In this document: positions 6,341 to 58,004 of the stretch, in pieces | Layout: each line of letters starts with the position of its first letter | Position numbering within the stretch: the first letter of the stretch is position 1 | Source: Geoalkalibacter halelectricus | GTDB taxonomy: Bacteria; Desulfobacterota; Desulfuromonadia; Desulfuromonadales; Geoalkalibacteraceae | Direction of reading: 5' to 3' | NCBI RefSeq assembly: GCF_025263685.1 | Contig: NZ_CP092109.1 | Coordinates: 3,845,001 to 3,909,000, forward strand | Length of the DNA stretch: 64,000 nucleotides | The notes under the pieces: generated by a model | The model's input: only the letters and a program-made list of their open reading frames with translations | What the model was told of the DNA's origin: nothing | Database searches by the model: none | Made by a program: the position numbers and the translations under genes

Positions 6341-6425
6341 TGCCCCGTGCGGCTAATCGTGTCTTCTAATTCTGGCTCTTTTCGGCGCTGCCTGCGTTGC
6401 GCCAACTTGACTTAGCGCATGGCTA

Positions 6426-6588
6426 GAAGGCTGTCGGACTATCCATAAGCCGGCTGCAAATCCGGCTGTTTGGCCCGGATTCCGGCTCCTTTTCAGCACG
6501 TAGCTACGGCTATGCACTCTCAAAGGAGCCAAAATCCGGACTCAAACATTCAAATTTTCGCTTCGGCCCGGATAGTCCGACAGCCTCC
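6426..6588. repeat. 163-bp MITE-like repeat, copy 1
   Basis: This non-coding element has near-perfect 19-bp terminal inverted repeats (GGAGGCTGTCGGACTATCC type; here the left end begins GAAGG) and an inner hairpin in which GGCTCCTTT pairs with AAAGGAGCC. It is flanked on both sides by TA (6424-6425 and 6589-6590), as expected of IS630/Tc1-mariner style insertion. Further 163-bp copies occur at 14925-15087 and 57842-58004. No transposase for it is visible in the window, so it is probably a non-autonomous element. It occupies most of the gap between the thioesterase and rhodanese genes. Confidence 0.85.
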
Positions 6589-6769
6589 TAGGCCTGCGTT
6601 GGCGAAGCCTTGACAGCACCAAAAATACCTCAGAATTATTTGACACGACTAACCACACGGGACACCAGGGCGGCGCAACAGGGTGCGCTTTGGAACCGGA
6701 ATGTTAAAATAGCATGTAGGTAGCAGGATAGAATAGGACGAATCGGCAAGAATTCCACGGGAGGTCGCC

Positions 6770-7084
6770 ATGCCTGTTCCTCGAATTGGTCCCGAAGAAG
6801 CACGCGCCAAGGTCAAGGCCGGCTCGGCCCTGCTGGTGTGCGCCTATGGCGAGGCGGAGAAATTCGCCCAGAATCATTTGGAAGACGCCCTGTCGCGGCA
6901 GGATTTCGAGGCGCGCCTGCCGCAAATCGCCAAGGACACCGAAATCATCTTTTACTGCGCCTGAACCGCCGAGCACAGCGCCGCCGGTCTGGCGGCCGAA
7001 TACCGCAAGCAGGGCTACCTCAACGCCAAGGCATTGCTGGGTGGCGTCAAGGGGTGGCAGGAAGCGGGTTTTGCCTTGGTTTAG
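6770..7084 (+). CDS. Rhodanese-domain selenoprotein (TGA at 6962-6964 read as selenocysteine)
   Basis: Reading through one in-frame TGA gives a 104-residue rhodanese-like protein. Before the TGA it reads MPVPRIGPEEARAKVKAG...DTEIIFYCA; after it, TAEHSAAGLAAEYRKQGY...LLGGVKGWQEAGFALV followed by TAG. The YC(A)U...S(A) segment is the rhodanese active-site loop and GGVKGWQEAGF is the family's C-terminal motif, so the frame is clearly coding on both sides. The codon is residue 65, two after the catalytic-position Cys63. A hairpin with a GGTCT loop follows (see SECIS). GGGAGG upstream of the ATG is a strong ribosome site. The likely role is sulfur or selenium transfer or redox chemistry. A plain nonsense mutation is the alternative. 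Confidence 0.85.
6980..6996 (+). promoter_or_regulatory. Bacterial SECIS apical stem-loop
   Basis: GCCGCC (6980-6985), loop GGTCT (6986-6990) and GGCGGC (6991-6996) form a perfect 6-bp stem. The loop starts with GG and reads GGTCT, the same apical loop as the E. coli fdhF SECIS bound by SelB. The first loop base lies 21 bases after the TGA, inside the accepted 16-37 base range for bacterial SECIS elements. The element lies within the downstream coding sequence, as in known bacterial selenoprotein mRNAs. Confidence 0.82.
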
Positions 7085-7258: not shown

Positions 7259-7717
7259 CTACTTTTTTCCGGCTATGGAGGCGAACTCAGTTGCAGAGGG
7301 AAGCACGGTAAAACCTTCAGCATCCGCTGCATCGCGCAGCCGCTGATCGAGGCAGACAAAAACCGCCCCCTGTGGTTTATTCTCGCACCAAACCAGACCA
7401 GCGGCCAACTGCAGAGAATCTGCAGCAGATAGGGGGTGTCTCCGGAGTAGGAGTCGCGCCGTATCGCGAACCTCATTAGATGGCTCCATTTCGTTCCAGT
7501 TCTCTGCTGCCACATCTAGCTGGTTGCGGACTTTTCTCTCTTCGTCGTGACTGATTTTCCCAGTACGACGCGCTTTTGCTGCAGCCGATGTGCACTCAAC
7601 CGCTGTGCCCCACCAAACTATCATTCCCCTGTCTTCTGCGAATATCCGGCGTGCTGTGGTCGAAAATTCCTCCTCCACCAACAACGGGATGATCGCACAA
7701 CTATCCCAAAACCTCAC
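7259..7717 (-). CDS. vapC: PIN-domain ribonuclease toxin (VapC family)
   Basis: The 152-residue protein has the PIN acidic residues in order: Asp5 (MRFWDSCAIIPLL), Glu41 (WGTAVECTSA), Asp99 (LSAADSLQLAAGL) and Asp123 (VFVCLDQRLRDAA). It begins four bases inside the end of the antitoxin gene (ATGA, 7714-7717), the usual antitoxin-toxin coupling. VapC toxins cleave tRNA or rRNA; the target here is unknown. All metal-binding residues are present, so it appears functional. Confidence 0.9.
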   Translation of the reverse strand: MRFWDSCAIIPLLVEEEFSTTARRIFAEDRGMIVWWGTAVECTSAAAKARRTGKISHDEERKVRNQLDVAAENWNEMEPSNEVRDTARLLLRRHPLSAADSLQLAAGLVWCENKPQGAVFVCLDQRLRDAADAEGFTVLPSATEFASIAGKK

Positions 7718-8010
7718 CTCTGCTCCCTCTCTTCAATCAGCGCTGTACGTACAGCCCCTTCCGGGTCGGCAGGCCCCTTTGGTGCCCAAAAGTCAGCTTT
7801 GAAGCCTTTGCCCACCCGTGCCAAGCCAGCGGCTTCCAGCTTCGCCATATTCGTCCCTTCGCCAGCCTCGTCTCGTCGCAACGGGACGATCTTTGCGAAG
7901 GGATGACCACGATCCGTCAACAGGATTTCCTCGCCCGCTTTGACCTTTCTGAAATATCCACTCGGAGACTTTTTCAGTTCGCTCACCGATGCTTTTTCCA
8001 TTATGTTCAC
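7714..8010 (-). CDS. Phd/YefM-family antitoxin
   Basis: The 98-residue protein has the Phd/YefM DNA-binding fold at its N-terminus (SVSELKKSPSGYFRKVKAGEEILLTDRGHPFAKIVPL), followed by an acidic, mobile C-terminal tail that would wrap the PIN toxin. It is the first gene of a two-gene operon with vapC. Translation may start at 8010 or three codons later at 8001 (MEKAS). Phd proteins usually bind a palindrome over their own promoter; none was resolved with confidence here. Confidence 0.88.
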   Translation of the reverse strand: MNIMEKASVSELKKSPSGYFRKVKAGEEILLTDRGHPFAKIVPLRRDEAGEGTNMAKLEAAGLARVGKGFKADFWAPKGPADPEGAVRTALIEEREQR

Positions 8011-8357: not shown

Positions 8358-8916
8358 TCAGACAGCTTGCGAACGGTACTCTGAATATAGTCGATAGACC
8401 GATGGCCGGCTGATGCCATAATGCTCGGCAATTTCCGTTTTGCTACATCCCGGCGCTTCAAAGTCCCTGATCAGGTCGGCAATTTCCTGCTTGGTCAGTT
8501 TCAAATTTTACACCGCGAGCGATGGCCTTGATGCGGCCTTCCATTGACCGTTCCTTGATCAGTTCCCGCTCGAATTCACCGATCGCGGCAAGAATGTTGA
8601 ATTGAAGCCGGCCATACATGGTTGTGGTGTCGATGCCTTGGTCCAGAACCACCAGGTCGACATTCTTTGCTTCGAGCTTCTGGACAATCCCTGCCAAATC
8701 GACCACCGACCTGGCCAAGCGGTCAAGCTTGGTTACCACGAAGACATCTTCGTCCCGGACAAAATCGAGCGCCTTTTGCAGTTCTGGTCGGCCCTTCGCT
8801 GAAGCGGCCGATGCCTTCTCGTGGTAGATGCGGTCGCAGTCGGCCAAACGGTCCAGTTGAAGATCCAGTTTTTGCCCTGATGAACTCACCCGTGCGTACC
8901 CGACTCTCATACCCAT
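8358..8916 (-). pseudogene. Frameshifted serine resolvase/invertase (second copy of 13877-14446)
   Basis: The first about 140 residues (MGMRVGYARVSSSGQ...SMEGRIKAIARGVKF) are almost identical to the intact resolvase at 13877-14446 and include the catalytic Ser of ARVSSSGQ and the KLDRLARS motif. After GVKF about 11 bases are missing, which shifts the frame and gives an early stop at 8458. In the alternate frame the helix-turn-helix tail continues (KLTKQEIADLIRDFEAPG, CSKTEIAEHYGISRPSVYRLY) to a stop at 8358-8360. The start at 8916 follows a strong AAGGAGGA site. The catalytic domain could still be made without its DNA-binding domain. Confidence 0.85.
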
Positions 8917-9067
8917 GACATCCTCCTTTTTCGCTTCGGGTTTAAACTCCGCGGCGGTGGCGGTGATCATGAAAATGAATTTTGGATGATAGCCTTTCCT
9001 GGGGGCCTAGAAAAATACCAATAAATATTATACACTGGTGTTGAGTTCGGAAAGGAAGGAGGCCAGT

Positions 9068-13876: not shown

Positions 13877-14446
13877 CTACGCGTCTTTTTGACCATTTTC
13901 CGCATAAAGCCTATAAACGGATGACCGACTGATGCCATAGTGCTCCGCAATTTCCGTTTTGCTGCACCCGGGAGCCTCGAAGTCCCTGATCAGGGCACGG
14001 ATTTTCTCTTTCGTCAATTTCGGCTTCGCGCCAAATTTCACACCACGAGCGATAACCTTGATTCGTCCCTCCATGGATCGTTCTTTGATCAGCTCCCTCT
14101 CGAATTCACCGATCGCAGCAAGAATATTGAATTGAAGTCTGCCATACATGGTTGTCGGATCAATACCCTGATCCAGAACCACCAAGTCGACATTCTTGCC
14201 TTCGAGTTTCTGAACGATTCCTGCCAAATCGACAACAGACCTCGCTAGGCGGTCGAGCTTGGTTACAACGAAAACGTCCTCATCTCGAACAAAGTCCAAT
14301 GCTTTCTGCAGTTCCGGTCGCCCCTTGGCCGACGCTGCAGATGCCTTTTCATGGTAAATGCGATCACAGTCCGCCAGTCGATCCAGTTGAATATCGAGTT
14401 TTTGTCCGGAAGAACTGACCCGCGCATAACCGATCCTCATTCCCAT
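13877..14446 (-). CDS. Serine recombinase, resolvase/invertase (Hin/Tn3 resolvase type)
   Basis: The 189-residue protein has the catalytic N-terminal domain (MGMRIGYARVSSSGQKLDIQ, Ser in VSSSGQ; VFVVTKLDRLARS) and a C-terminal helix-turn-helix (KTEIAEHYGISRSSVYRLY). An AGAGGAGGAC ribosome site precedes the ATG. It is the intact counterpart of the frameshifted copy at 8358-8916 in the same orientation. The pair forms direct repeats that could delete or amplify the 5-kb segment between them. It is probably the resolvase of a lost or decayed transposon. Confidence 0.93.
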   Translation of the reverse strand: MGMRIGYARVSSSGQKLDIQLDRLADCDRIYHEKASAASAKGRPELQKALDFVRDEDVFVVTKLDRLARSVVDLAGIVQKLEGKNVDLVVLDQGIDPTTMYGRLQFNILAAIGEFERELIKERSMEGRIKVIARGVKFGAKPKLTKEKIRALIRDFEAPGCSKTEIAEHYGISRSSVYRLYAENGQKDA

Positions 14447-14805: not shown

Positions 14806-15372
14806 GAATCGTTCTGGATACCAACGTATTCATTTCCGGAATTTTCTTTTCCGGGCCACCGCACCGTATCTTTCAAAGTTGGAGAGACGGCCGGATTCAG
14901 TTGGTGCTGACCCCTGAGATCCTAGGAGGCTGTCGGATTATCCATGAGCCGGCTGCAAATCCGGCTGTTTGGCCCGGATTCCGGCTCCTTTTCGGCACGT
15001 AGCTACGGCTATGCACTCTCAAAGGAGCCAAAATCCGGACTGAAACATCCAAATTTTCGCTTCGGCCCGGATAGTCCGACAGCCTCCTGAAAGAATACCG
15101 GCGGGTCGCTGAGGTCTTGCATGAGAAGTACCATGGGGTAGACATCACAAGGCTGCTGGAACTGGTGGTCGTCGAGGCCGAGATGTGCCAGGCGGAGCCA
15201 CTTGTTGAGGCCGTCAGTGCGGGCCCGGACGATGACAAGTTTATCGCCTGCGCCCTGTCCAGTGGCAGTAAGCTGATTCTCAGTGGGGACAAACATCTTC
15301 TCGATGTCAATGGCTACCGTGGGCTTGAAATACTCAAGCCGAGGCCATTTGTTGAAAAGTATTTGATCGACT
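14802..15372 (+). pseudogene. PIN-domain toxin (VapC) gene split by a 163-bp MITE-like insertion
   Basis: The first part (MRIVLDTNVFISGIFFSGPP...IQLVLTPEIL) contains the first PIN Asp. It is interrupted at codon 42 by the repeat at 14925-15087. After the repeat the gene resumes as KEYRRVAEVLHEKYHG..., with DDDKFIACALSSGSKLILSGD and NGYRGLEILKPRPFVEKYL, which holds the remaining PIN acidic residues. Removing the repeat joins ...LTPEIL to KEYRRV in frame. Read through the repeat, the frame ends at 15000, giving a 66-residue chimera. The end near 15372 is inferred from the usual VapC end (FVEKYL); no stop is there now and the frame runs to 15614. Confidence 0.88.
14925..15087. repeat. 163-bp MITE-like repeat, copy 2, inside a toxin gene
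   Basis: The length and layout match copies 1 and 3. The left terminal repeat has one change (GGATTATCC). TA lies on the left flank and TG on the right. Since the target is a recognisable coding sequence, this copy shows both element boundaries directly and proves mobility. Confidence 0.9.
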
Positions 15373-57841: not shown

Positions 57842-58004
57842 GGAGGCTGTCGGACTATCCATGAGCCGGCTGCAAATCCGGCTGTTTGGCTCGGATTCCG
57901 GCTCCTTTTCGGTACGTAGCTACGGCTATGCACTCTCAAAGGAGCCAAAATCCGGACTGAAACATCCAAATTTTCGCTTCGGCCCGGATAGTCCGACAGC
58001 CTCC
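57842..58004. repeat. 163-bp MITE-like repeat, copy 3
   Basis: Perfect 19-bp terminal inverted repeats (GGAGGCTGTCGGACTATCC and its complement), TA on both flanks (57840-57841 and 58005-58006), same inner hairpin as the other copies. It is closer to copy 2 than to copy 1 in the inner sequence (ATGAGCC, GGACTGAAACATCC). Confidence 0.92.

Follow-up and report, generated by a model that had tools for sequence, protein, structure and literature searches.

The window, a 64,000-nucleotide stretch of the Geoalkalibacter halelectricus genome (contig NZ_CP092109.1, positions 3,845,001 to 3,909,000), contains a short plus-strand frame of 105 codons that ends in TAG at 7082-7084 and includes a single in-frame TGA, at codon 65 (Table 1). 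The product obtained by reading through this TGA matches the Pfam Rhodanese model PF00581 at 30.5 bits (cut-off 22.2) over residues 28-99, and the match therefore crosses the TGA. The sequence is conserved on both sides of it as well, which bears out the original prediction that an in-frame TGA divides a rhodanese. Several other features were noted in the surroundings of this gene. An imperfect palindromic element of ~170 bp with the end motif GGCTGTCGGACTATCC occurs at no fewer than 40 sites in the genome, three of them within the window, and looks like a non-coding mobile element of the MITE type. Near the gene on its downstream side are two adjoining minus-strand genes encoding a PIN-domain protein (7259-7717) and a Phd/YefM antitoxin (7714-8010), which probably constitute a type II toxin-antitoxin pair. 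Two serine resolvase genes, also on the minus strand (8458-8970 and 13877-14446), are nearly identical, except that the C-terminus of the first differs. Short flanks inspected by eye showed no neighbouring gene in common between members of different genera, and none that points to a functional partner.

Table 1. Features of the predicted selenoprotein gene and its surroundings (positions are those of the window).
Feature	Position	Strand	Remark
Predicted rhodanese-like selenoprotein gene, 104 residues, Sec as residue 65, TGA read through to TAG	6770-7084	+	
In-frame TGA, predicted selenocysteine codon, Cys63-Ala64-Sec65	6962-6964	+	Same codon is TGA in relatives
Shine-Dalgarno-like GGAGG closely 5' of the ATG at 6770	6760-6764	+	From sequence
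Sigma-70-like promoter candidate (TTGACA, 18 nt, AATTAT), unproven	6610-6639	+	
Cys24 codon (LVCAY), where the usual rhodanese DVR motif has Asp	6839-6841	+	
Cys63 codon, first residue of CxU	6956-6958	+	TGA instead in two relatives
Predicted bSECIS hairpin with a 6-bp stem and a GGUCU loop starting 21 nt past UGA	6980-6996	+	Conforms to published bSECIS rules
Palindromic repeat of ~170 bp, copies in the window	6416-6598; about 14928-15084; 57845-58001		

Of 136 genomes of the order that were surveyed, 16 contain a sequence matching the window protein. In 15 of these the sequence belongs to the same clade and in the 16th it is a more distant relative, and TGA occupies the same codon. A family model applied to 395 genomes of the phylum gave further matches above 110 bits, all with an in-frame TGA. 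On the resulting tree, each of the 37 clade members has TGA at the codon matching residue 65. The members share a signature consisting of LVCAY, which replaces the canonical rhodanese DVR motif, together with FYCAU. Homologues had been expected to carry either Cys or U at position 65, and this is what we observed: clade members have TGA, and more distant relatives have either TGA or Cys, with L105 as an example of the latter. Our searches within the phylum found no plain-Cys member of the LVCAY clade. A search of genome contigs recovered one relative from the genus and one ordinary rhodanese, and no related loci were found on the viral contigs searched. The duplicate copy L065 (G035:C57) has TAA at the Sec codon, a change of GGV to DGV and an intact hairpin, and its sister copy L075 has TGA; L065 looks like a redundant copy in the process of losing Sec. 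Two further loci, L095 (G364) and L098 (G517), have TGA at both the Cys63 and Sec65 codons with one SECIS downstream, which would yield a UxU loop, and thus positions 63 and 65 both seem to tolerate Sec. We also compared the two halves of the gene in six genus pairs. The dN/dS ratios were 0.04-0.19 downstream of the TGA versus 0.11-0.38 upstream, with the downstream value being the lower in five of the six pairs and equal in the sixth. Furthermore, 98 of the 136 differences downstream of the TGA fall at third codon positions. Low dN/dS ratios and changes concentrated at third positions both argue that the downstream half is translated in frame.

The hairpin that follows the TGA consists of GCCGCC (6980-6985), the loop GGTCT (6986-6990), and GGCGGC (6991-6996). 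It had originally been placed 21 bases after the TGA, which is accurate for the start of the loop, but the stem already begins after 15 nt. The SECIS of E. coli fdhF has a loop with these same letters. Published limits for a bSECIS are a stem of 4-16 bp, a loop of 3-9 nt with a G within its first two positions, a distance of 16-37 nt from the UGA, and an energy of no more than -7.5 (PMC13188914). The window hairpin falls within all of these limits, having 6 bp, 5 nt, GG, 21 nt, and -11.6 kcal/mol, respectively. Even so, 85 of the 1,829 TGA trinucleotides on both strands of the window precede a hairpin that obeys the same rules with at least 6 Watson-Crick pairs. Since generic hairpins thus follow ~5% of the TGAs in the window, we rejected the hairpin by itself as proof of Sec. 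A GGTCT loop closed by at least 5 Watson-Crick pairs is found after only one of the 1,829 TGAs, namely that of codon 65. When a 49-mer was folded from the UGA onward, the minimum-energy structure differed from the SECIS hairpin. When the first bases, assumed to be covered by the ribosome, were omitted and 6971-7005 was folded, the SECIS hairpin was the minimum, at -12.7 kcal/mol, and in a fold of 6976-7002 the one SECIS-hairpin pair checked had a probability of 0.93. An Rfam search of the window gave no match, although a missing SECIS match there carries little weight.

Among relatives, the hairpin is conserved with compensatory changes. RNAalifold, supplied with 15 orthologues and no structure, returned exactly the SECIS hairpin and no other structure. 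In this alignment 97.8% of the cells are paired and 10 cells are changed on both sides, and the covariation score exceeds those of all 500 shuffles as well as all of the slid controls. For instance, columns 27 and 39, which are third codon positions on both sides, pair as C-G in 10 sequences, U-A in 3, and U-G in 2, while the outermost pair is G-C in 6 sequences, U-A in 6, U-G in 1, and unpaired in 2. Despite their synonymous freedom, codons in the loop and the upper part of the stem do not vary (Ala72 is GCC in 15/15 and Gly73 is GGT in 12/12). By contrast, Gly82, Ala88, and Gly91, which lie outside the loop, are each variable with four codons in use.

The source genome, a single contig of 4.13 Mb, was searched for selA, selB, selC, and selD, and selA, selB, selD, and a tRNA-Sec were all found. 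The selB match scored 390.8 bits (cut-off 242.25), selA 609.5, and selD 370.1, all above curated cut-offs, while the tRNA-Sec scored 75.6 against a gathering threshold of 47. The selB, selA, and selD genes adjoin one another at 692-697 kb and the tRNA-Sec is located at 3820 kb; the selD frame itself contains one TGA. Among the carrier genomes searched, 34 of 36 have selB, including all 28 of those that are near-complete, and the two without a match are incomplete assemblies (81% and 78%). This co-occurrence adds little, however, because selB is common across the order (115/136 genomes).

Given the conserved TGA, the selection upon the protein downstream of it, the covarying hairpin, the fixed loop codons, and the complete set of sel genes, it is very probable from the sequence evidence that codon 65 is coded as selenocysteine, as had been proposed. 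A true stop would leave either a 64-residue product or a decayed pseudogene with a mere remnant as its 3' part. This we consider highly improbable, because the TGA and the downstream protein have been kept across many families of the phylum, the downstream dN/dS ratio never exceeds the upstream one among the genus pairs, the SECIS covaries in relatives, and the genome has a complete Sec system. The truncated product would also be without the part of the rhodanese domain beyond the active-site Cys. The observations that could be cited in its favor are the TAA and the DGV of the duplicate L065 and the abundance of generic hairpins after the TGAs of the window. It is equally hard to credit that the TGA is read as some amino acid other than Sec through near-cognate suppression or a local change of code; nothing specific speaks for this, and the hairpin is conserved at a fixed spacing with fixed loop codons, the distant relative L105 has Cys at this position, and the full Sec system is present. 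In the favored reading, SelB carrying Sec-tRNA would bind the GGUCU loop just past the UGA, and Sec would be inserted at residue 65 of a small, stand-alone protein of the rhodanese fold.

We examined the probable active site using a structure predicted from three sequences (the window protein and related loci) with residue 65 modelled as Cys. The model has a pLDDT of 88 and a rhodanese fold, with its best match being GlpE (Z 16.0, rmsd 2.0, 101 residues). The residue is predicted to be part of a Cys63-Ala64-Sec65 active-site loop, which would be accompanied by a third invariant thiol, as Cys24 is found in 15/15 sequences at the place of the Asp in the usual DVR motif; a GlpE-type DxR motif was not found. 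Which residue corresponds to the catalytic Cys of a classical rhodanese was judged from secondary structure, alignment lengths, and identity counts, and the answers diverge. The original prediction placed Sec two residues from a Cys at the catalytic position, and the predicted structure agrees, as the strand ends at residue 62 with Cys63 directly next, and the catalytic Cys of GlpE likewise directly follows a strand. The profile alignment to GlpE does not agree, as it pairs residue 65 with GlpE Cys65 and runs gap-free from there to Gly91-92. The latter result supports a reading in which the classical catalytic position is taken exactly by Sec65, and the protein would be an ordinary sulfurtransferase that uses selenium, with Cys63 in an accessory role only. 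The spacing from Sec65 to Gly82 and Gly91-92 is also the same as that from Cys65 of GlpE. In addition to the strand end, this reading is opposed by the loss of the usual DVR motif and by BH2092, whose loop aligns gap-free and places its Cys opposite Cys63. With 101 residues at 23% identity, the structure-based alignment with GlpE also fits Cys63 on Cys65 slightly better, with 23 identities versus 22 for Sec65 on Cys65, these counts being based upon reconstructed offsets. Overall, we view a Sec65 at the classical position as a substantial possibility, but not the probable one.

Cys63 and Sec65 should lie near enough to form a selenenyl-sulfide in either register. Sec65 would most likely serve as the reactive nucleophile, with Cys63 as the partner in the selenenyl-sulfide. 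Because the DVR motif is lost and three thiol/selenol residues are present, redox or persulfide chemistry seems likelier than plain sulfur transfer. Yet, the proposal that this Cys63-x-Sec65 enzyme has a thiol/persulfide redox role, and is not an ordinary thiosulfate sulfurtransferase, is one that we regard as evenly balanced. It is possible, but doubtful, that the whole clade with LVCAY and FYCAU represents a redox family not described before and found only with Sec, in which the usual catalytic apparatus of rhodaneses has been abandoned (DVR motif lost, Cys24 gained) in favor of a Cys/Cys/Sec triad. Its CxU loop, which is UxU in two lineages, might then act on persulfide or selenide, and the enzyme could, for instance, carry reduced selenium or reduce persulfides.

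The best NCBIfam match of the window protein is NF041203 (rhodanese_LYCAU), but its score of 50.9 bits is far below the cut-off of 115 and the protein is therefore not filed under this family. All 15 of the aligned clade members match the NF041203 model at E <= 0.001. On the tree, 37 LVCAY-type sequences form one group and 31 DxR-type CxU/CxC sequences form another, with weak node support for both the window's group (0.40) and the DxR-type group (0.67). Judged by these sequence comparisons, the clade is a sister of the catalogued CxU family rather than an isolated oddity. NF041203 is a curated (seleno)protein family, described in a 2026 review as 'rhodanese-like domain-containing protein form 3' with CxU (PMC13188914). 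According to reviews, CxU rhodanese selenoproteins have been known since 2005, with PMC13188914 citing Zhang and Gladyshev 2005. A true NF041203 member exists in the same genome (L046, C1:3054129-3054494), with CxU, a score above the cut-off, and the same SECIS placement. The genome also contains two other rhodanese-like frames with one in-frame TGA each, L054 (C1:3410003-3410350) and L056 (C1:305865-306215).

As far as we have seen, the LVCAY-signature clade with its UxU variants is new, as is the evidence for a SECIS in it. No description of the clade was found in the literature searched, which was mostly open-access. Gene finders that treat TGA as a stop would cut the protein to 64 residues. 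Because of this cut and the score far below the NF041203 cut-off, the clade is probably mis-annotated across the many genera of the phylum over which it is spread. The clade also offers a clean test case for measuring directly what selenium contributes at either site, since the fold occurs with CxC, CxU, and UxU, and both with and without the DVR motif.

Among known systems, NF041203 resembles the window clade in its rhodanese fold, its similarly placed CxU, and a SECIS at +21 or +22 in both groups. Its members differ in being longer and in having a DxR-type motif and LYCAU, whereas the window protein has FYCAU. GlpE, the E. coli thiosulfate sulfurtransferase (PDB 1gmx), is likewise a single rhodanese domain of nearly equal length, but it has one catalytic Cys and a DIR motif and is without both CxU and Cys24. 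L105, L106, and L108 share a rhodanese domain with YCxC or YCxU; in these, however, the domain is inside an open frame of ~320-330 residues, which may be a DedA-type fusion, and the DxR-type motif is kept. BH2092 of Bacillus halodurans (PDB 3o3w, 3nhv) has an active-site loop two residues longer than that of GlpE, and the window protein aligns with it gap-free through this loop, but BH2092 is without Sec and has its second Cys at +5 (YCWGPAC).
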